This document shows, in pieces, positions 2,903 through 36,651 of a DNA stretch of 42,175 nucleotides. A model generated the notes under the pieces. The model was given only the letters and a program-made list of their open reading frames with translations, did not search any database and was not told the origin of the DNA. The stretch spans positions 1 to 42,175 of IMG/VR virus record IMGVR_UViG_3300036398_003854; one strand, given 5' to 3'. The stretch comes from a virus. Made by a program: the position numbers and the translations under genes. The first letter of the stretch is position 1; each line of letters opens with the position of its first letter.

Positions 2903-3430
2903 ATGCCACTAAGAAAAGGTTATTCTGATAAAACGCTACAAAATAATATTGGTCAGCTAATTAAAGATGGATATCCACAAAAGCAAGCAGTAGCTATTGC
3001 TTTAGAAATTCAAAGAAAAGCTATGAAAGAAAAAGGAAAAACAGATTCTAGCTATGCCGTCATTACAGCTGAAGAAAAGTTAAAGGAAATTGACTTAGCT
3101 GCATTGGAACAAGCTCTAATGGAAACAGAGCCTATGCAAGATGAAGATGGACAGTGGAGTAAAAGATATACAATGGGCAATATTAGAGACATAGCTCCAA
3201 GTGGCAAGCATCTTATTTACTACACAACTGAATCAGATCCACAGCTTGTTGAAGATGTTAAATTTTGGAATATGTTTATGGATCAACTAGATTACTTTCC
3301 ACATGAAACCCATATTGAGAATGAAGAAGATCAGATTATAATTGTTTCAAATATGATGGAAGATGATGACTACGAAGAGCTTGAATCTGAGACAGAAGAA
3401 TTTGACCTAAAAAAAAAGACTTCGGACTAA
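2903..3430 (+). CDS. Conserved phage protein, zero-frame part of a probable frameshifted gene
   Basis: This reading frame gives 175 residues from ATG 2903, behind a good SD (AAGGAGAG). The N-terminus (PLRKGYSDKT...GYPQKQAVAIALE) is a small helical motif seen in many phage proteins of unknown function. The middle is acidic. The frame ends KKKTSD just after a run of nine A (3409-3417) followed by G. The -1 frame continues openly from there to 3846 with a second conserved phage domain, so the gene is better read as one 314-residue product with a -1 shift at 3412-3418. No function can be assigned. It lies directly downstream of nrdF and ahead of a terminator. A homopolymer sequencing error is the main alternative to programmed frameshifting. 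Confidence 0.8.
   Translation: MPLRKGYSDKTLQNNIGQLIKDGYPQKQAVAIALEIQRKAMKEKGKTDSSYAVITAEEKLKEIDLAALEQALMETEPMQDEDGQWSKRYTMGNIRDIAPSGKHLIYYTTESDPQLVEDVKFWNMFMDQLDYFPHETHIENEEDQIIIVSNMMEDDDYEELESETEEFDLKKKTSD
3412..3418 (+). other. Candidate -1 ribosomal frameshift slippery site A AAA AAG
   Basis: The zero-frame codons are AAA (3413-3415) and AAG (3416-3418), preceded by A. This is the same heptamer, in the same phase, as the E. coli dnaX slippery site. A zero-frame stop follows at 3428-3430, while the -1 frame stays open to 3846. A modest 7-bp stem with two G-U pairs (3434-3440 with 3462-3468) lies 15 bases downstream, farther than is typical for a stimulator. No strong upstream stimulatory SD is visible. 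Confidence 0.6.
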
Positions 3431-3846
3431 CTCAGTGGGCTACTAAAACTGGACAAGGGACGCCTGCTCCTAAGCGAGATAGAATCAAAGGTAGTGATGT
3501 CAATAAACCAGGAAGTGCTCAAGGCCCTGGTGGAGACATTGAGATTGATGAAAGTACAGAAGTGGGTCTAAGAAATAAAGTTTCTGAGCACAATGCGGAA
3601 ATGGAAAAACTCGATAAGCCTGTTTGGGCTAAAACTACTTTGGGACAACTGAAAGCTGTGTATCGTAGAGGTGCTGGAGCATATTCTACATCTCATAGAC
3701 CTGGTGTTACTAGAGCACAATGGGCTATGGCTAGAGTTAATGCATATTTATACCTTTTAAAAAATGGTAAGCCTAAAGATAAAAAATATGTAACAGACAA
3801 TGATCTTCTTCCAAAAGAGCATCCAAGATCTACAAGAACTAGTTAG
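3418..3846 (+). CDS. Conserved phage C-terminal domain, -1 frame continuation of the gene at 2903
   Basis: This stretch encodes 142 residues in the frame entered by a -1 shift at 3418. It has a Gly/Pro/Lys linker, then a domain with LGQLKAVYRRGAGAYSTSH, WAMARVNAYLYLL and the ending DNDLLPKEHPRST. I recall this pattern from many tailed-phage proteins of unknown function. The only canonical internal start, GTG 3562, has no SD and would cut away the linker, so independent translation is unlikely. The reading frame has no ATG start of its own between the previous stop (3403-3405) and the domain. Fusion to the upstream frame makes a 314-residue protein. A terminator follows 7 bases after the stop. 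Confidence 0.65.
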   Translation, partial: DFGLTQWATKTGQGTPAPKRDRIKGSDVNKPGSAQGPGGDIEIDESTEVGLRNKVSEHNAEMEKLDKPVWAKTTLGQLKAVYRRGAGAYSTSHRPGVTRAQWAMARVNAYLYLLKNGKPKDKKYVTDNDLLPKEHPRSTRTS

Positions 3847-3852
3847 TTATCT

Positions 3853-3888
3853 GGAGTTACTAATTATATATTAGTAGCTCCTTTTTTT
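3853..3888 (+). terminator. Intrinsic terminator after the ribonucleotide reductase unit
   Basis: A 12-bp stem (3853-3864 with 3870-3881, one G-U pair), a 5-base loop, then seven T. The T-tract runs directly into the -35 box of the next promoter. Confidence 0.9.
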
Positions 3889-4966: not shown

Positions 4967-5818
4967 ATGAAAAAAATGATTAATAAGAGTATGATTGAAG
5001 GAGTTTTACTAGAAAAAGAATTGCGTTCTGGTGTTACTAAGGCAGGAATTCCTTATGTTTCTGGTAGACTTCAAATTGAAACAGAGCCAGGCAATGTTAT
5101 TACTATTGATGTATTTGAACAGCAAAAAACATCTAAAGGATTGGACAATGCAAAGTTTGGAATTTTAAATGGTATCTATTTGAATGGTTCAGCTAAGCAA
5201 GATGGAGCAGCTAATCCAACTCGACTTCGTGTTAATTCAGCATTAGATTTAAATGACTGGACAGATAAAGATGGTCAAGCTCGTACAGCATTAATTAATG
5301 CAGGTGGATATATTAATATAGTTCCAACTGTAAACCCTAAAGCTGAGTTTGAAGTTGATATTGTTATTAAATCTGTACAACCAGAAATTAGAAATGAAAC
5401 AGAAACAGGTCGAGCTGTTGTTAATGGATTAATTTTTAACTATAGAAATAACGCCCTTCCAATTCGTCTTGTTGTTGAAAACAAAAAAGGCGTAGACTTC
5501 TTTTCTAATCTTGATCCAAATACTTTTACACGGGTTTGGGGAGTTCAAGTTAATAACACAGTAACAAATGAGAAGGCTGAGGAGTCAGCTTTTGGAGATT
5601 CAAAAGTTGTTCGATCATCGTATACTCGTAAAGAGCTTGTTATTACTGGAGCACAAACTATTCCATACGAAGAAGATCAATTGAGTCCTGCTGAATTAGC
5701 AGCTGCTGTTCAAGCTAGAAATATCGTAGTAGCTGAAAAGACTCAAGGTGTTAAACCTGCTGCACCTACAACTACTACAACAACTGCAAAGCCAGCTACA
5801 AACACATTTAATTTTTAA
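4967..5818 (+). CDS. Probable single-stranded DNA-binding protein
   Basis: 283-residue protein placed just before a Sak4-like recombination ATPase, the usual position for a phage ssDNA-binding protein. The first 60 residues (MIEGVLLEKELRSG, then a strand-rich stretch with EPGNVITIDVF) look like an OB-fold start. The main body is beta-rich with no catalytic motif. The C-terminus is a flexible Thr/Pro/Ala-rich tail ending in NTFNF. The aromatic last residue recalls SSB tails, but the acidic residues normally used to recruit partners are missing. The role is inferred mostly from position and general character. It has its own promoter and a strong SD. Confidence 0.6.
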   Translation: MKKMINKSMIEGVLLEKELRSGVTKAGIPYVSGRLQIETEPGNVITIDVFEQQKTSKGLDNAKFGILNGIYLNGSAKQDGAANPTRLRVNSALDLNDWTDKDGQARTALINAGGYINIVPTVNPKAEFEVDIVIKSVQPEIRNETETGRAVVNGLIFNYRNNALPIRLVVENKKGVDFFSNLDPNTFTRVWGVQVNNTVTNEKAEESAFGDSKVVRSSYTRKELVITGAQTIPYEEDQLSPAELAAAVQARNIVVAEKTQGVKPAAPTTTTTTAKPATNTFNF

Positions 5819-26865: not shown

Positions 26866-29800
26866 TTATTGAACCATTGTTTTTAATTGTTCTACTTCTA
26901 ATTTAAGAGTATTAATTTGTTCTTGTTGCTCTTGTATTGCACGAGTCAATATAGCAATTAAGTTGCCCTCAGCAATACCTAAAAATGGCTCATTTATTTC
27001 TTCATCATTTTCATTATAATAAGTTGTTTGATTTTGTTTCACTATACTATTTACATAAGGCTTATCTTTTAAAACCTCTTGCACTTCTTGAGCTATAAAA
27101 CCAACAGTTTTATTCTTTAAATCAAAATTATGAGTTGGATGTGATTTCCAATTAAAAGAAATTGGATTTAAAGAATTTACAATATTTAAAGCATCGATAA
27201 GTGGCTCAATATTTTCTTTATAATTTCCATCTGATGTTGCTATTGTTCCACTTGTAGCAAAAATTTGAGAATTAACTTGTAATTTATAGGAAGTTGCTGT
27301 TGTATTGGTAGTAGTGTAACCAATTAAAAGCTCACCAGGACCAGTAATTCTCATAGCTTCTGCTAATGATGTAGTTCCAGCATTAGTATTCGAAAAAATA
27401 ATATTTTGAGCACTTGCAGTAGTCGTTTGAGCACCATTAGTATTAAATGCTATTCTAGCACCATCTGTGGTAGGGTATGCAGTACCATTATAAGCTCTAC
27501 CAGCCAATATTAAAACGTTATTATTATTTGCGACTGCTGTTGGAGTGGCTAATGAGGTATTTGCTCTTCTTCCTATTACTTGGCTTGTTCCACCAAAAGC
27601 ATCAATCTCAAGTACATTAGAACTTGCATTTGCTCCAGTAACAATCAAATTGGCACTTGTTATTATAGTATATGCTGGACTTCCAGTATTTCTGTTGATA
27701 TGTAATTCTGTTAAAGGATCTGTTGTTCCTATCCCTACATTACCTATATTGTTAATTCGCATTGATTCTGCATAAGTACTTGACCCAATGCCTCGTTCAA
27801 AAACTAAACTTCCTGGAAAATCAGTGCTAGGATTGCCTTCATTTACAATTCTTGTCCCATAGCCTGATGACCCATAGCCTAATTTAATTGCTGTTCCAAC
27901 AATTGCTTCTGTTTGATTATTATTTAAAGACATTATCTCAACAGTGCCAGTTTCTGATTTTACAATATTCAATTTTGCATTAGGTGAACCTGTCCCTATT
28001 CCTATATTACCGCTGGAATCAATTCGCATTCTTTCTGCTGGACTTGCTGAGCTAGTAGGACTTGTAAAAAATGCTATTCTTCCAGGCATAACTGCTGAAC
28101 TAGGAGCGCTATCAACGCTCACTTGTATTCTAGCGGCTTCTCTAGCTTGACTTCCATCTGATCCACCAAATGAAAGTGATCCTAATTCATCACCAGAATT
28201 TACTATTACGTGCTGACCTATACTTGAAGTTCTACTTTTTGTAAATACTGTTCTAAATCCAACAGTATCATCACTAAATCTATTTAATCCCATACCTGCA
28301 GTGCTTAAAGTAGTACCAGCTATTTGTAATCTTGGAGAAATATTTGTATTAGAAGTTAGTCCAGTGAATGATGCAGTTAGTCCAATTAGTAATCTATCAC
28401 TGGCATCAATACGCATTACTTCCGTTCCACCTTCAACAAATGCCAAATTATCTGCTATAGGATTATATATTCCTGTATCTATATCTGAAGAAAAAGAAAT
28501 GGAAGGAGTTCCAAGTCCACCTGGGGCAAATAGTCCCTGTCCAGATAAACTCATATCTGTAGCAGAAAAACTACCTTGAGCAGTTCTAGCTATAATAGTT
28601 GAAGCTACATTAGAGCTTGTAGCATTAGATGTTACTGTAAACGTAGAATTTGAAGTTGTATTTGCTGTAAAAGTTGTACTACCAGAAATACCAAGTCCTG
28701 ATGTCGCAAGAGTAAGAGTTCCATCCCCAATTGTTGGAGAATTCGTTAAATTATTATAATTTAAGTAATATTCACTAGAAGATCCATCTAATAAATCAGC
28801 ATTTAGATTTGTAACTTTAGTATTTGAATCTACAATCAATGGTGCCGTTCCAGTGGTGACAGTTGATATAAGTTGATTACTAGATAGACTTCCAGCAACG
28901 GAAACTGTGCCACCAGAAATTCCCATATTTATAGATGTAGCAGAACCACCAAAATTTATAGTGGTTGTTTTAGTATTGTATAAGTCTAATGCCCTACTTG
29001 AAATACTGAGAGATGAGGTTCCAATATTACTAGTCTCTAATATCTCTGTTAATCCTGTTGTATCTAAAACAGTTAATGATGTCGACTGTGTTAAGTCATC
29101 ATAATTTGCACGCTCAGCCACTTTTAATGTCCAATGAACATTTTGAGGTGTGTCTGTTGAAATATATCCAATTTTTATAATATTAGAAGCAGTATCTTCA
29201 TAAACTTTTATATCAATGTTTAAGTTCATAATAAGTATTTGTTCTTTTAAAAGCCTCAATGCTTTTGATGGAAGAGTATTGGCTCGTATTCCTAAAATAA
29301 ATCTAGCAATTCCATTGCTTTGACTAGCTGTAACTCCTACCTCCCCAAAGATTGTAAAGTTAGAGCTATTGTTTTGTAAGTCTAATGTTGCTAATTCATA
29401 TAAAATATTTGCTGTATGTGTCGCATTATATCCACCAGCAAATTGTCTAATCGTATTTCCAGATATTAAATCTTTTGTAATCATTATTGATGAAGCAGTT
29501 AATAGGCTAGAGGAAAATCCTCCACTAGCATCCCTAGCAACAATAGTTGAAGCTACATTAGAGCTTGTAGCGTTGGAAGTTACTGTAAAGCTTGCATTTG
29601 AACTAGTATTAGCACTAAAATTAGCAGAGCCAGATAAACCAAGACCAGAAGTAGCCATAGTTAGGGTGCCATCATTGACTGTGCTAGTTCCACCACCACT
29701 TGCGGTAGTTAAAGCTTCTGCTACCTTAGGTTCCTTCATCAATATTATTTTTTTATTTGAAAATTGATTATCTGGAACCAATACCAAAACTGAATCATTT

Positions 29801-29994
29801 ACTGAATAAGATTCATTTGTAGAACTAAAAACATCATACTCGATTCCTTGATACAAAATTCTATATAAATTTTGACTTGGAGTTGGATGAGCAGTAATAG
29901 TTGCAATTATAGTTTTATCTAGTTGAATTTGTTCAATTTTTTTATCAGCCATTATATCTATAGTTTTTAAAATCTCTTTTTGAAAATCGTTCAT
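26866..29994 (-). CDS. Tail fibre with C-terminal S74 self-cleaving chaperone
   Basis: 1042-residue fibre. The N-terminal 95 residues form the virion-attachment part. Two near-identical segments (residues 108-163 and 424-479) carry DGTLTMATSGLG-type sequence. Four knob-like repeats of the form E-MRI--GN-GIG-- follow in the second half. The end is a Peptidase_S74 intramolecular chaperone: SDGNYKENI places the catalytic S921 and K926, IGFIAQEVQ-like sequence follows (GFIAQEVQEVL), and a C-terminal coiled coil (QEQINTLKLEVEQLKTM) drives trimer formation. Cleavage before S921 would release about 122 residues after folding. Start ATG 29994, SD AAGGAGG. Confidence 0.88.
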   Translation of the reverse strand: MNDFQKEILKTIDIMADKKIEQIQLDKTIIATITAHPTPSQNLYRILYQGIEYDVFSSTNESYSVNDSVLVLVPDNQFSNKKIILMKEPKVAEALTTASGGGTSTVNDGTLTMATSGLGLSGSANFSANTSSNASFTVTSNATSSNVASTIVARDASGGFSSSLLTASSIMITKDLISGNTIRQFAGGYNATHTANILYELATLDLQNNSSNFTIFGEVGVTASQSNGIARFILGIRANTLPSKALRLLKEQILIMNLNIDIKVYEDTASNIIKIGYISTDTPQNVHWTLKVAERANYDDLTQSTSLTVLDTTGLTEILETSNIGTSSLSISSRALDLYNTKTTTINFGGSATSINMGISGGTVSVAGSLSSNQLISTVTTGTAPLIVDSNTKVTNLNADLLDGSSSEYYLNYNNLTNSPTIGDGTLTLATSGLGISGSTTFTANTTSNSTFTVTSNATSSNVASTIIARTAQGSFSATDMSLSGQGLFAPGGLGTPSISFSSDIDTGIYNPIADNLAFVEGGTEVMRIDASDRLLIGLTASFTGLTSNTNISPRLQIAGTTLSTAGMGLNRFSDDTVGFRTVFTKSRTSSIGQHVIVNSGDELGSLSFGGSDGSQAREAARIQVSVDSAPSSAVMPGRIAFFTSPTSSASPAERMRIDSSGNIGIGTGSPNAKLNIVKSETGTVEIMSLNNNQTEAIVGTAIKLGYGSSGYGTRIVNEGNPSTDFPGSLVFERGIGSSTYAESMRINNIGNVGIGTTDPLTELHINRNTGSPAYTIITSANLIVTGANASSNVLEIDAFGGTSQVIGRRANTSLATPTAVANNNNVLILAGRAYNGTAYPTTDGARIAFNTNGAQTTTASAQNIIFSNTNAGTTSLAEAMRITGPGELLIGYTTTNTTATSYKLQVNSQIFATSGTIATSDGNYKENIEPLIDALNIVNSLNPISFNWKSHPTHNFDLKNKTVGFIAQEVQEVLKDKPYVNSIVKQNQTTYYNENDEEINEPFLGIAEGNLIAILTRAIQEQQEQINTLKLEVEQLKTMVQ
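28558..28725 (-). repeat. Fibre repeat, copy 2
   Basis: Encodes residues 424-479 of the tail fibre, about 950 bases from copy 1, with most residues the same. Homologous recombination between the copies would remove about 316 residues in frame. Confidence 0.85.
29506..29673 (-). repeat. Fibre repeat, copy 1
   Basis: Encodes residues 108-163 of the tail fibre and is closely similar at DNA and protein level to copy 2 at 28558-28725. Both contain the run SFTVTSNATSSNVASTI or a near match. Confidence 0.85.
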
Positions 29995-30024
29995 AATTAA
30001 CCTCCTTTTTTCTCTATATATAGA

Positions 30025-30060
30025 TAAAAAAAATAGGGGATAGATTTTTCATCTATCCCC
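30025..30060 (-). terminator. Intrinsic terminator after the lysis genes
   Basis: A perfect 10-bp stem (30036-30045 with 30051-30060), a 5-base loop, then a long T-tract on the minus strand. It starts 7 bases after the holin-like stop. Confidence 0.93.
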
Positions 30061-30066
30061 ACTGGA

Positions 30067-30441
30067 TTATTCTGACTTAGATAATACTTTTTGAATTGTT
30101 TTTATAATTAGCTCTTCATTTAGTGCTTCTGGATGTCCAAGCTTTTCAAGTGATGCCTTAACAGTTTTTTCAATTAACACAAGCTTCTCAGCTTCACCTA
30201 GATCTGGATTTTTGTCGTTAATAGCATTTACAGCAGTTTTAACGATATCAAGAATCTTAACTAGATTATCTTTATTTTTAGAAGGAGGAAGTAAAGCTAA
30301 TACAATATCAGAATATACTAGGGCTTCATCAAGTTCTTCAATTATTTGAGCTACAACCTTGCTTTTCTTTTTATAACGAACCCCCAAATAAATTGCAACT
30401 AGGGCCGCAGCAGGTAATACAATAGTCAATAAAATTTCCAT
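30067..30441 (-). CDS. Holin-like membrane protein
   Basis: 124 residues. One hydrophobic N-terminal segment (residues 2-22, LLTIVLPAAALVAIYLGV) is followed directly by basic residues (RYKKKSK), then a long soluble helical domain. This layout resembles the LLH-type phage holins, which have one N-terminal transmembrane helix and a cytoplasmic helical tail. It lies 20 bases downstream of the endolysin gene and before a strong terminator, so the two form a lysis pair. It could instead be another membrane protein of the lysis system. Start ATG 30441 with SD AAAGGAG. Confidence 0.6.
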   Translation of the reverse strand: MEILLTIVLPAAALVAIYLGVRYKKKSKVVAQIIEELDEALVYSDIVLALLPPSKNKDNLVKILDIVKTAVNAINDKNPDLGEAEKLVLIEKTVKASLEKLGHPEALNEELIIKTIQKVLSKSE

Positions 30442-30460
30442 TTAAACTCTCCTTTTTTTC

Positions 30461-31135
30461 TTATAAATTAATTTTTTGTCCTACAGAAATTATGTTAGCA
30501 TTTTTAATTTGTGGATTTTTCTTTAATAATTCATCTAGTGCTAATCCATTACTAGAAGCAATTTTACCGAGAGTATCTCCAGATTTAATTGTATAAGTTT
30601 GTCCTTCACTTACAGGAGCTTTAGGTTTTGGTGTTAGTTTTGAAATAAGTCCACTCTTAGCAGCTTGTACTCCATCAGGCTTTGATGGTAGCTTTTTACC
30701 AGCAAAGTATACTTCAGGATTAATTCTATCATTTTCACTTGGTGTCCAACCAAAGCTAGGACCTGATTTTTTACGAATCTCATAGTGTAGATGTGAACCT
30801 GCTGAAGCACCAGTGTTTCCTTGATTACCAATATGTTGACCAACTACAACCTCATCTCCAGTTTTAACTGCAACTGAATCTAGATGGGCATAAACATGAC
30901 AATAACCAGTTCCAGGTTCAACTATGGCAACTACATTTCCCATGTCTCCTAAACCTGTCCCCTTATCGCCCCAACCTGCATGAATAACTTTTCCTGCTGT
31001 AAAAGAAGGAAGAGGAGCTTTGTCTGCTGTAACCAAATCAATTCCTTTGTGAAATTCTTTGCCTCCTGTTAGGGGCTGAACTCTAGGTCCAAATACAGAT
31101 GTTACTCTAAAACCACTATCTTGAAAAACTCCCAT
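30461..31135 (-). CDS. Endolysin: M23 metallopeptidase with LysM wall-binding domain
   Basis: 224-residue peptidoglycan hydrolase. The M23 (lysostaphin-type) zinc endopeptidase domain spans about residues 5-145: H29 and D33 (FHKGID) and H117 (HLHYE) are the zinc ligands, and H84 (YAHLD) and H115 complete the active site. A Pro/Lys linker follows, then a LysM domain at about 180-224 (YTIKSGDTLGKIA, NPQI, ISVGQKINL) that binds the sugar backbone. There is no signal peptide, so release would need a holin, and a holin candidate follows. Being directly downstream of the tape measure gene, it could also be a tail-associated wall hydrolase. Confidence 0.9.
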   Translation of the reverse strand: MGVFQDSGFRVTSVFGPRVQPLTGGKEFHKGIDLVTADKAPLPSFTAGKVIHAGWGDKGTGLGDMGNVVAIVEPGTGYCHVYAHLDSVAVKTGDEVVVGQHIGNQGNTGASAGSHLHYEIRKKSGPSFGWTPSENDRINPEVYFAGKKLPSKPDGVQAAKSGLISKLTPKPKAPVSEGQTYTIKSGDTLGKIASSNGLALDELLKKNPQIKNANIISVGQKINL

Positions 31136-31170
31136 TTGATATCCTCCTCTAATTTGTTTTCATTTAGAGT

Positions 31171-31203
31171 AAAAAAGGAGAGGGATTGATTTTATCCCTC
31201 CAC
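31171..31203 (-). terminator. Intrinsic terminator after the tape measure gene
   Basis: GAGGGAT (31180-31186) pairs with ATCCCTC (31194-31200) around a 7-base loop, followed on the minus strand by six T (31171-31176). Confidence 0.75.
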
Positions 31204-31206
31204 CCA

Positions 31207-34200
31207 TTATGGATAAGATTTTGTCGATGATGCATATTGGCTTGCATTATTTGATAGGCCTTGAGTCCATGTCATAAATGCATATGAATCTACTATTCCT
31301 GGTAAATTTAAATTATTAATTGTTATATTTGTTGGATTTTGAGCTTGACTATTTGCTGTAGAGTTCGGTTGTATATTTAAATTTGCAGCAGTCACTCCAG
31401 GTGGTAATATTCCAGATGCATTAGGATTAACTTTTATTTTATCAGTTAATTCTTCAATACTATTTCCTAAAAGAGTATTTGATTGAATTAACGCATTTTG
31501 AGAAGATATTACTCCCGCAGTTGCATTTAAAGAGGACTCTTTAATATTTTTAATCTCTTGGGCGGATAGTGCCCCTTGTACTTGTGAAAGACTAATACTT
31601 CCTGCAGTCAACTGTGCAGCTAGTCCAACATTGCCCTTTGCAGCTAAAGCAGAGATAGTCTTTGCTTTTTCAATTTCTGGTTTTAAAGCATCTCTTTGAC
31701 TAATGAGACTTGATCTTAAAGATTTTAATCTACTACTATCTCCACCCTCAGATTCTACCTGAGCTATTTGTTGATCTAGAGTATATATTTGATTAACTAA
31801 ATCTGAATAAGAAGAAACAGTTTTACTTTCATATTCGGCAGCGGCAGTAATTGCTTTAGATTTATCTGTTTCTTGTCCTATTTGCCTAGCAAATCTAAAT
31901 CCACCACCAGAAGATCTTTGTAGAACCATTTGTGTTTGAGTTCTAGAAGACAATCCCTCTAATAAGCCTATTTGAAGTTTATATTGATCTATGCTTTGTC
32001 TAGTTAAAGTAGCGTCTCTAATTTTTAATTGAAGCTGTTTTAAATTCGTCTTATATGTTTCATCTGTACTATTATTAATTCTATCTTGAATATCTGCTTC
32101 CAAAGAAGCCTTTTCTATTATTTGTTCATGAGCATCAATAGTGTTTTCTAGGATTTTTTGTTGAATTTGATATGCGTCAGAAATAGATTTTAAAGCATCC
32201 ATTCTTTGCTTCGCAAGTAAATCGGCATCAGTTTCTGTATCTACTTGGTCATTATCAACTTCTCCAGGCTTACGAGCCCTCATTATATCCATACCAGTAG
32301 TTAAAAATAAATATGAAAACTGCTTATAAAAGGCTTCTGTAGCATCAGTTCTCTCTGTTTCATCTACAATATACTTTAAAGATTCAAATGCTTTTTTTAC
32401 AGCCTCATTTTTTTCTACTAAAGATCTAAATCCTGCCTGCTGAGCAGATTCTATATTGAAAGATTCTCCAGTGGATAGCTCAAGAGTTTCCCCTCTTTTC
32501 TCTGTAGAAATTACTCCTTCTACAGCTTGCTTCGTCATTCTGGTTATTTGAGCATCGTATTGACGACGTTTAATTTCATCTAACTTTTTTTCTTCTGGAC
32601 TTAAATATTCTTGAGCTGCCTTATATTCAAAAATACCAGGCAAGAATCCTTGTCCTAATATAGAGCCAAAAGATCTCATTCTATCAATAAAACCAACCGA
32701 TGTTTCTGGGCCAATTTCTTGTGCTGCAGTTATTTTTCCTTGAATCTGTAAAGCAAGAATATCTTTTTCAAGCTGTAGCTCTTCTTTTTTTAGCTCAATA
32801 TATTCTTTCATTGCTTCAGTAGTATCTAGTATTGCATTTCCATATTCATCTTGTCCTAAAGAAAGAGCTGGTAACAATTCAGCCAATCTATTTGCGGCAT
32901 CACGATAGGCCTGTGTTGTTTTATCTATATTTGAATCGCTAACAGTATCAAGAAGTTCTTCAATTTGTTTTAAGCTTGTAGAAATAGACTCATTTGCAGT
33001 TGTATTTAGCCTAGATAATTCTTCTCTAAAAGCAGCAGCATTTTTATCAACAGAAACAAATTGAATTCCTAGCCCTACTAAACTACCAACGAGTGTTCCA
33101 ATAGGACCAAAAGCTGATCCAATAGCTGGAGCTAATGCTGCCATAGATCCAGTAAATTTTTCCATATTAGTTAAATTTTGTTGAGTTGCAACATTAAGTA
33201 TTTGTCCCAATGCTGCAAATGATCCGACTCCAACACCAATAGCAGCTCTTCCAGCTTGACCCCTCAATGCTTGCTTATTGATGCTCGAAAGCTCACCTTC
33301 TTCAATATCTGTTAGCGTTTGTTTGCCTAATAGCTCAGTTCTTCTATCTGCTAATCCAGATGGAAGTACAGCAGCAGCTCCTCCTCCTAGAAGCTGACCT
33401 AAAAAGCCACCTCCACGACCGACTCCAATCCGCTGTCTTTGTGCTATTGATTGGTCTGCACCAGTTATACCACCTATACCAGTTATTTTTGTACCAATTG
33501 CACCTGCAAGAGAAGAACCACCCAATAAACTCATTGCAGTTATTGGGGCTAGATTATTTGCTATAAGAGCAACTACTCTTGCAAATCCATATCCACTTTC
33601 TATCATATTATTTAAATTAGATATAAGAGCAGTAGTAGTGTCTAGTAGGTCTTTGAATGCTTTTGTTTCTATTATATTTAAAGTAAAATTTTCCCATTCA
33701 TTAGAGAGTTGTTCAATTTTAGCTCCGATTGAATCTAAATATCTTGCATTAGCACGCTCTGCAGCTCCACTACTACTTTCTGCTTCTTGTAGTAATTGAT
33801 TATATCTGTCTTGATTTGTTATCAAAGCTATGAATCTATCTCGCTGCTCTTTTCCAGCTACAGCTTCTATTAAAGCATTTTTTGCAGCTACATCAGAAGT
33901 GCTGTTATAAAGTACTGCAATTTCTTCTAGCATAACTGGAACAGACTTCATCTGACCAGTGTTTCTATCTATTAGTTCAAATGTCAAATTAAATTGCTGT
34001 GCAACTTTTTGAAGTTGGTTGGTTATATTTCCAAAGTCTTCAGCACTATATTTAACCTCAGCTAAGTTACCAATTAATGTTTTAAATCCAGTACCAACCA
34101 TCTCTGCACTTTGACGAGTTGTTTCTGATACTGTTGCAATCATTGCAGCAGCTTCTTCTGCACTAAATCCAGCAGCAGCAAAAGATGATGCGGAACGTTT

Positions 34201-35022
34201 AAAAGCTGAAGCTATTTCATCTGCACTAGATCCTGATGCAGCATCTAAAGAAGCTAACATGTCAGCAATTCGTTGTCCAGCTCTAGAACCATCACTCTCT
34301 AATATCTTAAAAGAATTTGCTATTGCAGTAATATATTCTGCGGTATCTGAAGCATTAGCTCCAGTAATATTAGATAGTTGTATTGAGCTAGCTGCTAGAC
34401 TTTGAGCATAGTCCGCTGCTAATCCACCTTGTTGTAAGAATGTTAAAGAGGCGTCTGCAAAAGCTTTTCCAGTTACACCAAGAGCCTTTCCTGCGTCATT
34501 AGCATATCTAGCAAAGATCTCCATGCTTTGTGCACTTCTATCAGTTACTATTCCAATACGAGTCATTACTTTATCAAGCTGAATAAATTGTTGTACTGTA
34601 CTAGCTAATCCTGCCATAGCAGCAAAAGAAAGGGAATATAAAGGAGCCTCTAAAAATGATTGTCCTAAGGCCCTTTGGGTTCTCATTCCTATTGTATTTC
34701 TACGATCCTGAGTGCCAGTATTATATTTCCGCAAACTATCTTGAATCTTCTGCTCTTTAGTAAGCTTTTGTGTTGCTTGGGTGGTATTGTTAATTTCTTT
34801 TGTTAGTCTCTCTTGTTCTTTTCTTGCGGCAACAATGGAAGATTGAACGATTTGATATCTTTGTTTCAAATCAGAAAGTCTTTTTGCATCAGTATTTGCT
34901 ATAGGACCTTTTTCTATTTTTGATATCTCTCTATTAATTTTTCGTAATTCAGCCTCTGATCGTTTAAGCTCTTCATTATTTGTATTAAACTTTATTTGTA
35001 CATTATGTTTTACGTTAGCCAC
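31207..35022 (-). CDS. Tail tape measure protein
   Basis: 1271 residues, the longest gene of the late arm. It sets tail length and is ejected with the DNA. The N-terminus is a charged coiled coil (about 10-110). A TP901-type tape measure core follows (about 125-470), with repeated Ala-rich helices such as GKAFADASLTFLQQGG and AGFSAEEAAAMIA. Gly/Ala-rich hydrophobic stretches lie around residues 475-520 and 590-655, and long coiled coils follow to the end. At the usual 0.15 nm per residue the tail would be roughly 190 nm, an inference. Start ATG 35022, SD AAAGGAGG. The tail tube and chaperone candidates precede it. Confidence 0.9.
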   Translation of the reverse strand: MANVKHNVQIKFNTNNEELKRSEAELRKINREISKIEKGPIANTDAKRLSDLKQRYQIVQSSIVAARKEQERLTKEINNTTQATQKLTKEQKIQDSLRKYNTGTQDRRNTIGMRTQRALGQSFLEAPLYSLSFAAMAGLASTVQQFIQLDKVMTRIGIVTDRSAQSMEIFARYANDAGKALGVTGKAFADASLTFLQQGGLAADYAQSLAASSIQLSNITGANASDTAEYITAIANSFKILESDGSRAGQRIADMLASLDAASGSSADEIASAFKRSASSFAAAGFSAEEAAAMIATVSETTRQSAEMVGTGFKTLIGNLAEVKYSAEDFGNITNQLQKVAQQFNLTFELIDRNTGQMKSVPVMLEEIAVLYNSTSDVAAKNALIEAVAGKEQRDRFIALITNQDRYNQLLQEAESSSGAAERANARYLDSIGAKIEQLSNEWENFTLNIIETKAFKDLLDTTTALISNLNNMIESGYGFARVVALIANNLAPITAMSLLGGSSLAGAIGTKITGIGGITGADQSIAQRQRIGVGRGGGFLGQLLGGGAAAVLPSGLADRRTELLGKQTLTDIEEGELSSINKQALRGQAGRAAIGVGVGSFAALGQILNVATQQNLTNMEKFTGSMAALAPAIGSAFGPIGTLVGSLVGLGIQFVSVDKNAAAFREELSRLNTTANESISTSLKQIEELLDTVSDSNIDKTTQAYRDAANRLAELLPALSLGQDEYGNAILDTTEAMKEYIELKKEELQLEKDILALQIQGKITAAQEIGPETSVGFIDRMRSFGSILGQGFLPGIFEYKAAQEYLSPEEKKLDEIKRRQYDAQITRMTKQAVEGVISTEKRGETLELSTGESFNIESAQQAGFRSLVEKNEAVKKAFESLKYIVDETERTDATEAFYKQFSYLFLTTGMDIMRARKPGEVDNDQVDTETDADLLAKQRMDALKSISDAYQIQQKILENTIDAHEQIIEKASLEADIQDRINNSTDETYKTNLKQLQLKIRDATLTRQSIDQYKLQIGLLEGLSSRTQTQMVLQRSSGGGFRFARQIGQETDKSKAITAAAEYESKTVSSYSDLVNQIYTLDQQIAQVESEGGDSSRLKSLRSSLISQRDALKPEIEKAKTISALAAKGNVGLAAQLTAGSISLSQVQGALSAQEIKNIKESSLNATAGVISSQNALIQSNTLLGNSIEELTDKIKVNPNASGILPPGVTAANLNIQPNSTANSQAQNPTNITINNLNLPGIVDSYAFMTWTQGLSNNASQYASSTKSYP

Positions 35023-35043
35023 ATAAATCCTCCTTTAATCTTA

Positions 35044-36135
35044 TTATTGTGAAGATCTGACTGTTATTGTTCCTGTAAGATTTTCAAAATTTCCATTTGT
35101 TTTATTTACAATAGCATAAGGTAAAGCAAGAGTTCCATCTGCATATTTTTCGAATCTTTCAAATAAAAATTCTGAATTAGCAACTAAATTATTATTAGGA
35201 CCCTTTTTTATTTCTAGAAATATTAAAGCTCGATTATATGCGCCACCAAGAGCAATATCAGAAAGTATTGCAGCTAATATTCTTCTATTTATAAAATTCT
35301 CAGATGATTTATTAATATCTATACTATAAGCTAAAGATTTTAATAACGTATGAAACCTAGTAAGATTAGCACCTGTTGTTTGAATTGGAATACTATCTCC
35401 TAATTTATATGTTGCATTAGATAAATATGCTTTAATACTAATACCAAGAGTGGCCGTGTTTCCATTTATAACTGTAGAAATTTGAGCATCTCTTTTTGAT
35501 GTACGAGAAGATATATTTTGACCCTCTGTTAAAGATCCTTTTCTTTTTGATACACCAATGCCCCTAGGTCCTTTAGTAGGGGAAAGACTTGAAGTTAAAT
35601 TATTTAAATTAACAGTTAAGTCATTAAATGCATTTTCGCTTATAGCTTCTGTAACTGAAGAAAATATATTACTTAAAGAACCTCTAAGAGCACCAAGTCT
35701 TTTTTCTTCTTCTCTATTATTTTTATTAACAACTGCAACTAAATGATTTTCTAAAGAGCCTGGAGTTTTATATTTATCTTGTATATCTAAATCTTTTAAT
35801 GCATCGAAAAAATCTACAACCTGTTTAGAATTTTTATTAATAGCAGATGATATTGATGCTCTATCTATATTACCATCTATATTTTTTAATCCTTCTACAA
35901 CCTCGAGATAACCAGCACCAATTGGATCAAGCAGAATATTTATCCGAGTATTCATGTCACTAATAAATTTCTCTATAGTTTTTTTATTTACCCCTGGCAT
36001 TTTAGCCTTAGTTTCTTTCTTTACATCTCTAGCTAATGCATCATATATTTTTTCTATTTTTGTACTATTTATATTTTTTTCTTGTATCATATTTTGTCCA
36101 ATAACTTTGGCATAGTATAGTCTTTCTGTAAACAA
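35044..36135 (-). CDS. Unknown protein upstream of the tape measure
   Basis: About 363 residues; no family recognised. It is helical and basic at the N-terminus (KIEKIYDALARDVKKETKAKMPGV trimmed here to its pattern), with a lysine/serine-rich middle and a strand-rich C-terminal third (NGNTATLGISIKAYL, ALIFLEIKKGP). The start is uncertain. The frame opens at TTG 36159, but AAAGGAAG lies downstream of that codon, so TTG 36135 is the better candidate (GTG 36144 is too close to the SD). The position between chaperone and tape measure suggests a tail assembly or virion role. It lies just after a terminator with no visible promoter. Confidence 0.6.
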   Translation of the reverse strand: MFTERLYYAKVIGQNMIQEKNINSTKIEKIYDALARDVKKETKAKMPGVNKKTIEKFISDMNTRINILLDPIGAGYLEVVEGLKNIDGNIDRASISSAINKNSKQVVDFFDALKDLDIQDKYKTPGSLENHLVAVVNKNNREEEKRLGALRGSLSNIFSSVTEAISENAFNDLTVNLNNLTSSLSPTKGPRGIGVSKRKGSLTEGQNISSRTSKRDAQISTVINGNTATLGISIKAYLSNATYKLGDSIPIQTTGANLTRFHTLLKSLAYSIDINKSSENFINRRILAAILSDIALGGAYNRALIFLEIKKGPNNNLVANSEFLFERFEKYADGTLALPYAIVNKTNGNFENLTGTITVRSSQ

Positions 36136-36161
36136 TAAAAACACTTCCTTTCTTTCCAAAT

Positions 36162-36192
36162 AAAAAAACCCTCTTGTTATTTAAACAAGAGG
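36162..36192 (-). terminator. Intrinsic terminator after the chaperone candidate
   Basis: A 9-bp perfect stem (36170-36178 with 36184-36192), a 5-base loop, then seven T on the minus strand. Transcription must pass it to reach the tape measure gene. Confidence 0.9.
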
Positions 36193-36210
36193 ATAATTAA
36201 ATTACTATAT

Positions 36211-36651
36211 TTAGCTAGTTTTTTGTTCAGTAATGCCACTTAACATAGTCATACCTTTTGCATATGACTGATTATATAGATTCAAATTATTTTTAGCTCT
36301 TTCTGCAACACTAAAAATAAAATCATATTCTGAAGGTTTGATTGCTCTTATAATAGATTCTAGGATTCCAGTAGAATTAAGCTCATCAAAAATTCTAAAA
36401 ATATCAGCAATATCTTCTTCGTCAAATTTTATATTAGTATAGTTTTCAACAATAAACGTATGAAGATATGCATCCATTAAAGTTTCACTGACACAACCAT
36501 TAATTACAGAGCCAGTTGTAGCAAGCTCAATTATATTTGCTTTAACATCCACTGGAAGATATTGTTTTACTTCTACTTGAATCCCATTAATATCAACTAA
36601 CTTTACAGAGTCATCTGTCTTTAAATTTAAATCTTTATATAATACGAACAT
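36211..36651 (-). CDS. Tail assembly chaperone candidate, 146 residues
   Basis: Mostly helical acidic protein (KANIIELATTGSVING, DEEDIADIFRIFDEL) in the place where tailed phages encode the small chaperone that coats the tape measure, between the tail tube and tape measure genes. Sequence identity to a named family is not clear to me. No canonical slippery heptamer is in the correct phase near its end, and a terminator follows, so the usual chaperone frameshift is not evident. It is the first gene after a consensus extended -10 promoter. ATG 36651 has SD AAAGGAG about 10 bases upstream. Confidence 0.55.
   Translation of the reverse strand: MFVLYKDLNLKTDDSVKLVDINGIQVEVKQYLPVDVKANIIELATTGSVINGCVSETLMDAYLHTFIVENYTNIKFDEEDIADIFRIFDELNSTGILESIIRAIKPSEYDFIFSVAERAKNNLNLYNQSYAKGMTMLSGITEQKTS

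Follow-up and report, generated by a model that had tools for sequence, protein, structure and literature searches.

Organization of the locus and of the junction

The locus lies on the plus strand of a 42,175-nucleotide stretch of viral DNA (IMG/VR record IMGVR_UViG_3300036398_003854; the whole of this stretch is referred to below as the window) and comprises two overlapping open frames, here termed parts A and B. Part A (2903-3430) starts at an ATG at 2903, shortly downstream of a directly read SD-like GGAGAGA (ggagagagtataATG; 2891-2897), and specifies a 175-residue zero-frame product that ends at a TAA stop (3428-3430), likewise read directly. Part B (3418-3846) comprises 142 residues in the -1 frame. 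Directly 3' of its stop lies an intrinsic terminator with a 12-bp stem and a T tract (3853-3888), so that the two parts lie at the end of a single transcription unit.

Direct reading of the zero frame across the junction gives ...GAA TTT GAC CTA AAA AAA AAG ACT TCG GAC TAA, with a run of nine A's (A9; 3409-3417), the proposed slip site, which holds most of an A AAA AAG heptamer (3412-3418). As an earlier note on this DNA had claimed, the heptamer conforms to the X XXY YYZ slippery pattern in the -1 phase, the zero-frame stop follows closely, and the -1 frame is open to 3846; the distance to the stop codon is 9 bases rather than the 10 given in that note. The -1 frame is free of stops from 3406 onward, and its overlap with the zero frame is about 22 nt, with the A run as its core. 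A9 is the only run of at least nine A or T in the window and its longest run of any kind, all G or C runs being shorter than seven. Synonymous-codon shuffles of the called genes contain on average 3.2 sense runs of at least nine A's, against the single observed one at 3409-3417. The in-phase heptamer A AAA AAG occurs seven times in the called genes, and only the instance at 3412-3418 has a stop within eight codons. With nine A's at the junction, the run also has the length associated with transcriptional slippage (about eight or more), and a single inserted A converts the message to CUA AAA AAA AAA GAC UUC GGA, which enters the open -1 frame. The coincidence of A9 and a frame change at one place is far from random; an indel in a homopolymer would generate the same co-location, which therefore does not by itself prove a programmed site.

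Domain architecture of the two parts

Part A consists of an N-terminal helical hairpin (residues 1-45), an alpha/beta domain (approximately 56-150) and a disordered acidic tail (154-175) that bears the slip site. The hairpin is recovered by the phrog_2423 profile (E 2.7e-17; positions 1-45 of this 52-residue family), and the middle domain has no match among sequenced phages. Fold comparison of A as a whole yielded no confident match except for the small hairpin, a fold search with B found no solved-structure relative, and sequence searches found none for either part. In the AlphaFold models the A9 run falls in the disordered tail that separates the two folded parts, and such a predicted disordered linker is a tolerant place for a junction. 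The coding sequence of A also contains, 5' of the slip site, a strong (11/12) sigma-70-like promoter match (3315-3342).

The C-terminal half of part B is a DUF5824-like helical domain (PF19141; E 1.7e-10; 41.6 bits versus a curated cut-off of 25), the match being restricted to profile positions 70-126 of 127. This bears out the original proposal that the -1 frame encodes a second phage domain. All matches of B are phage proteins, some of them named prohead protease, XkdF or ChaB, and a literature search found no mention of DUF5824. The homology of B begins at a TPAP motif at 3460, and the first ATG, GTG or TTG in the -1 frame is the GTG at 3562, leaving the conserved beginning of B (TPAPKRDRIKGSDVNKPGSAQGPGGDIEIDESTE; 3460-3561) upstream of every such codon in its frame. 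The earlier view that the second part lacks a supported start thus holds, in that no ATG, GTG or TTG reaches the conserved beginning and the GTG at 3562 has a weak SD or none.

Recurrence of the split arrangement

Four further IMG/VR contigs (G001-G004, from datasets 3300044695, 3300034104, 3300034101 and 3300042542) match 19.4, 29.3, 6.3 and 10.1 kb of the window respectively, at 99.90-99.97% identity and with zero indels. An identical A9 is present in all four, and thus in five assemblies together with the window. The contigs are separated by SNPs and hence are not copies of one assembly, although the five source samples may not be independent. The arrangement in this freshwater-type phage is accordingly real and repeated in five assemblies. 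Random assembly error is rejected on this ground, and sequencing error in the nine-A run, which the earlier note had regarded as its weakness, is likewise unlikely.

Three SNPs fall within B among the five contigs; G004 carries all of them, each is synonymous when read in the -1 frame, and each lies 5' of the GTG at 3562. The chance of three synonymous SNPs is about 0.012 if they are independent; however, they cluster within 13 nt, might represent a single event, and are for this reason given little weight. They are spaced six bases apart (locus L085 of G004; window positions 3525-3537), possibly as the trace of recombination with a diverged strain outside this set.

A single-frame orthologue and other relatives

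A 92-kb contig (G005; locus L086) carries A and B in one frame as a 285-aa protein that is 70% identical to the joined parts of the window. It is colinear with the window and the upstream flank supplied by G002, with replication genes, DNA polymerase, tail and other genes in the same order, and it retains the downstream 61-67-aa gene (88% identical). In comparison with L086, the zero-frame similarity extends up to the acidic tail and the -1-frame similarity resumes at the FG immediately after the run; this switch, together with the 22-nt overlap, implies that the frame change must fall at the A run. The presence of a single-frame colinear orthologue indicates that A and B are one protein, and this is the outcome of the search for fused homologues that the earlier note had recommended.

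In L086 (5001-6484) the A-B fusion stands in tandem with an adjacent A-only paralogue (202 aa, 41-43% identical to A), as against the single copy of A in the window. This A-only gene beside the fusion is a precedent for the presence of both forms. B was also recovered at 80 other loci: wherever it is not cut by a contig end it lies behind an in-frame start codon, in most cases inside a large protein, and each complete copy is thus preceded by coding sequence in its own frame. Homologues kept as two separate genes, which had been named as evidence against a joined product, were thus not what the complete relatives displayed. The interpretation of A and B as two independent genes is rejected in view of the single-frame orthologue and the lack of a start for the conserved beginning of B. 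Protein and DNA queries of IMG/VR viral contigs and GTDB genomes found no diverged split-frame relative; the only diverged orthologue, L086, is single-frame, and the split frame and slippery site are not conserved across diverged relatives.

Two side observations concern these relatives. Within its colinear region (28547-36404; L128:8547-16404) G005 contains host-like metabolic genes for a FAD-dependent oxidoreductase, serine hydroxymethyltransferase, ferritin, a BMP-family lipoprotein, cytochrome b and a fusion of the cytochrome b C-terminal region with cytochrome c, the cytochrome genes being flanked by the 61-aa gene on one side and by the counterpart of window positions 4967-5818 on the other; these represent either unusual phage cargo or a chimeric assembly. 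At loci L073, L071, L068 and L078 the B module follows an N-terminal domain (TKAIGFHWNVKG...) that by eye looks Dps/ferritin-like.

Selection on part B

Relative to L086, part B shows a dN of 0.13 and a dS of 0.77 (dN/dS about 0.17), and part A a dN of 0.25 and a dS of 2.4. In the segment 3460-3561 the differences by codon position number 4, 4 and 14 (dN 0.14, dS 0.90), a pattern which shows purifying selection on this segment, translatable only after a shift; these measures span the whole time since the split from L086, and a very recent loss would escape them. Among 51 columns of B conserved in the other rows of the alignment the window breaks none and L086 two, and the window branch amounts to 0.22 changes per column.

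Proposed slippage and its mechanism

Four features are directly observed: the junction sequence, its presence in all five assemblies, an orthologue that reads in a single frame, and selection acting on B. The occurrence of slippage, its route, its rate and the use of both products are inferred. Usual translation of 2903-3430 would yield the 175-residue A with its acidic disordered tail. At A9 some expression events would slip, either through RNA polymerase adding one A to produce an A10 message or through a one-base backward step of the ribosome at A AAA AAG. By both routes the product would be ...EFDLKKK-DFGLTQW..., an A-B fusion of 314 residues whose frame closes at 3846, ahead of the terminator. 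Slippage is a known kind of event, and the gene probably slips to give two products. On the sequence evidence we consider it reasonably likely that slippage at A9 yields the A-B fusion beside A. The frames and lengths of both products predicted in the earlier note stand, with slippage itself probable yet unproven.

We think polymerase slippage somewhat likelier than ribosomal slippage, since in bacteria a run of nine A's needs no further signal to cause it and the ribosomal stimulators are absent. No downstream stimulatory RNA structure was detected, five folding windows being less stable than shuffles (z +0.64 to +1.63), and no SD-like stimulator hexamer is present 9-14 nt upstream, where there is only a weak GAAGAA (3395-3400). 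Hence, of the dnaX-type site originally described, the heptamer is present and the downstream structure and SD-like stimulator are not; the ribosomal -1 shift proposed there also left unconsidered that A9 is an equally good or better site for RNA polymerase slippage. Nine A's support efficient bacterial RNA polymerase slippage in vivo, and in Thermus dnaX the polymerase slips on a nine-base run (PMC5009743); homopolymers of at least eight are typical of transcriptional realignment (PMC3711429). Against slippage counts an E. coli reporter in which poly(A) slippage was weak, with none detected below eight A's and no deletion on the examined A runs (PMC6260861). The near-one-strain character of the contigs, the lack of a diverged split relative and the indel-prone homopolymer count in the same direction. 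A search for a single-subunit RNA polymerase gave no match, but its controls gave none either, so this negative carries no weight.

A strict ribosomal mechanism, in which a dnaX-type -1 shift takes place on a message that keeps its nine A's, is a sub-case of slippage rather than an additional alternative, and we regard it as possible, if on the unlikely side. It would account for the heptamer in exact phase with the stop 9 nt further on, and few -1 sites in E. coli are as prone to shifting as A AAA AAG, the heptamer used in dnaX (PMC5009743), but the poor folding of the downstream RNA and the missing SD-like hexamer tell against it. No tRNA genes were found in the phage sequence examined. The efficiency of a shift on A AAA AAG depends on a host with a single lysine tRNA.

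Alternative explanations

The main remaining rival, which we judge unlikely, is a young indel in one lineage: a recent frame-breaking event, or a phase-variable state, that became fixed, with A alone being enough and B unmade or produced by accidental leakage. The split copies are all at least 99.9% identical, which would fit a recent origin of the split; the A9 run is a hot spot for mutation, and the sole diverged orthologue is single-frame. The 'programmed' label used in the earlier note is consequently unproven, since only one near-identical lineage has the split and a recent indel is possible. Yet the run has the same length in five assemblies with none repaired, B shows no decay, and the SNPs in B, albeit clustered, are all synonymous. 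Even after such an indel, some fusion should still arise by leakage at A9.

That B is started internally as a stand-alone helical domain, from the GTG at 3562 or from an ATT at 3538 or 3544 after GGTGGAG, appears very unlikely. Initiation at 3562 would give 94 residues, nearly the whole predicted folded core (helices from residue 45), and a promoter-like match lies inside A; against this, the SD of the GTG is weak or absent, ATT starts are rare, the segment 3460-3537 would be left untranslated although selected in frame, and in the relatives examined every complete B is preceded by an in-frame extension. A systematic sequencing or assembly error, with a true run length that restores one frame, is the least credible explanation, for although homopolymers are error-prone, the run is equally long in all five contigs, which were assembled separately and come from several IMG datasets, and no indel occurs across the 29-kb, 19-kb, 10-kb and 6-kb alignments.

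Possible function and implications

The B module recurs in phage proteins encoded among the head genes and, in our reading of the IMG/VR relatives, together with a prohead-protease-like part. In Roseobacter phages it occurs in genes annotated as major capsid protein, adjoining portal and terminase; in the Actinomycetia phage DSL-LC01 it lies downstream of the portal gene. In a P22-like phage the phrog_2423 hairpin has a small gene to itself, next to the coat gene. It is therefore reasonable to guess that the fusion acts in the virion or in head assembly, but the guess is a weak one given that the gene in the window adjoins ribonucleotide reductase and replication genes.

If slippage is real, it adds a second product to a phage gene whose function is unknown, and the two lineages provide a natural pair in which a two-form protein comes from one slipping gene or from two genes. 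Standard annotation, which predicts a gene of 175 aa and a fragment of 94 aa, would miss this product. A broader conjecture, which we consider doubtful, is that this phage family makes both forms, the relative through adjacent paralogues and the present lineage through slippage at A9, such that recoding would replace duplication in a gene type previously undescribed as recoded. If only an indel is involved, the locus illustrates the tolerance of A-rich phages for homopolymer frame breaks.

Comparison with known systems

DUF5824, matched by B, elsewhere forms part of larger proteins and is in frame with the rest of them, frequently alongside a prohead-protease-like part; none of the loci checked for this family or for phrog_2423, matched by the first 45 residues of A, displayed recoding. 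As in Citrobacter rodentium tssM1, poly-A stands shortly 5' of a zero-frame stop, slippage leads into the frame that encodes the rest of the protein, a shorter and a longer form would result, and ribosomal stimulators are absent. In tssM1 an A11 tract just 5' of a premature stop yields two lengths, with about 20% frameshifted (PMC4256274); that case is an experimentally shown one in a secretion gene, whereas the present A9 in a phage gene is known from sequence alone. E. coli dnaX shares the A AAA AAG heptamer and the short and long products, and Thermus thermophilus dnaX, an instance of polymerase slippage, the nine-base run. In dnaX, however, tau, the long form, is the zero-frame product and the short form arises by the shift, the reverse of the order proposed here; the stimulators of E. 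coli dnaX are missing, and the proteins are unrelated. In the methyltransferase gene CPt10_0091 of Campylobacter phage CPt10 the reading frame likewise changes within a poly-A tract, and expression via transcriptional slippage was suggested for it, although there the change is described as a confirmed frameshift mutation near the end of a gene for a different protein (PMC2853527). Finally, while the gene, its position and the protein type differ, the lambda G/GT tail-assembly chaperone is comparable in that a -1 shift near the end of the upstream ORF gives a short and a long form.
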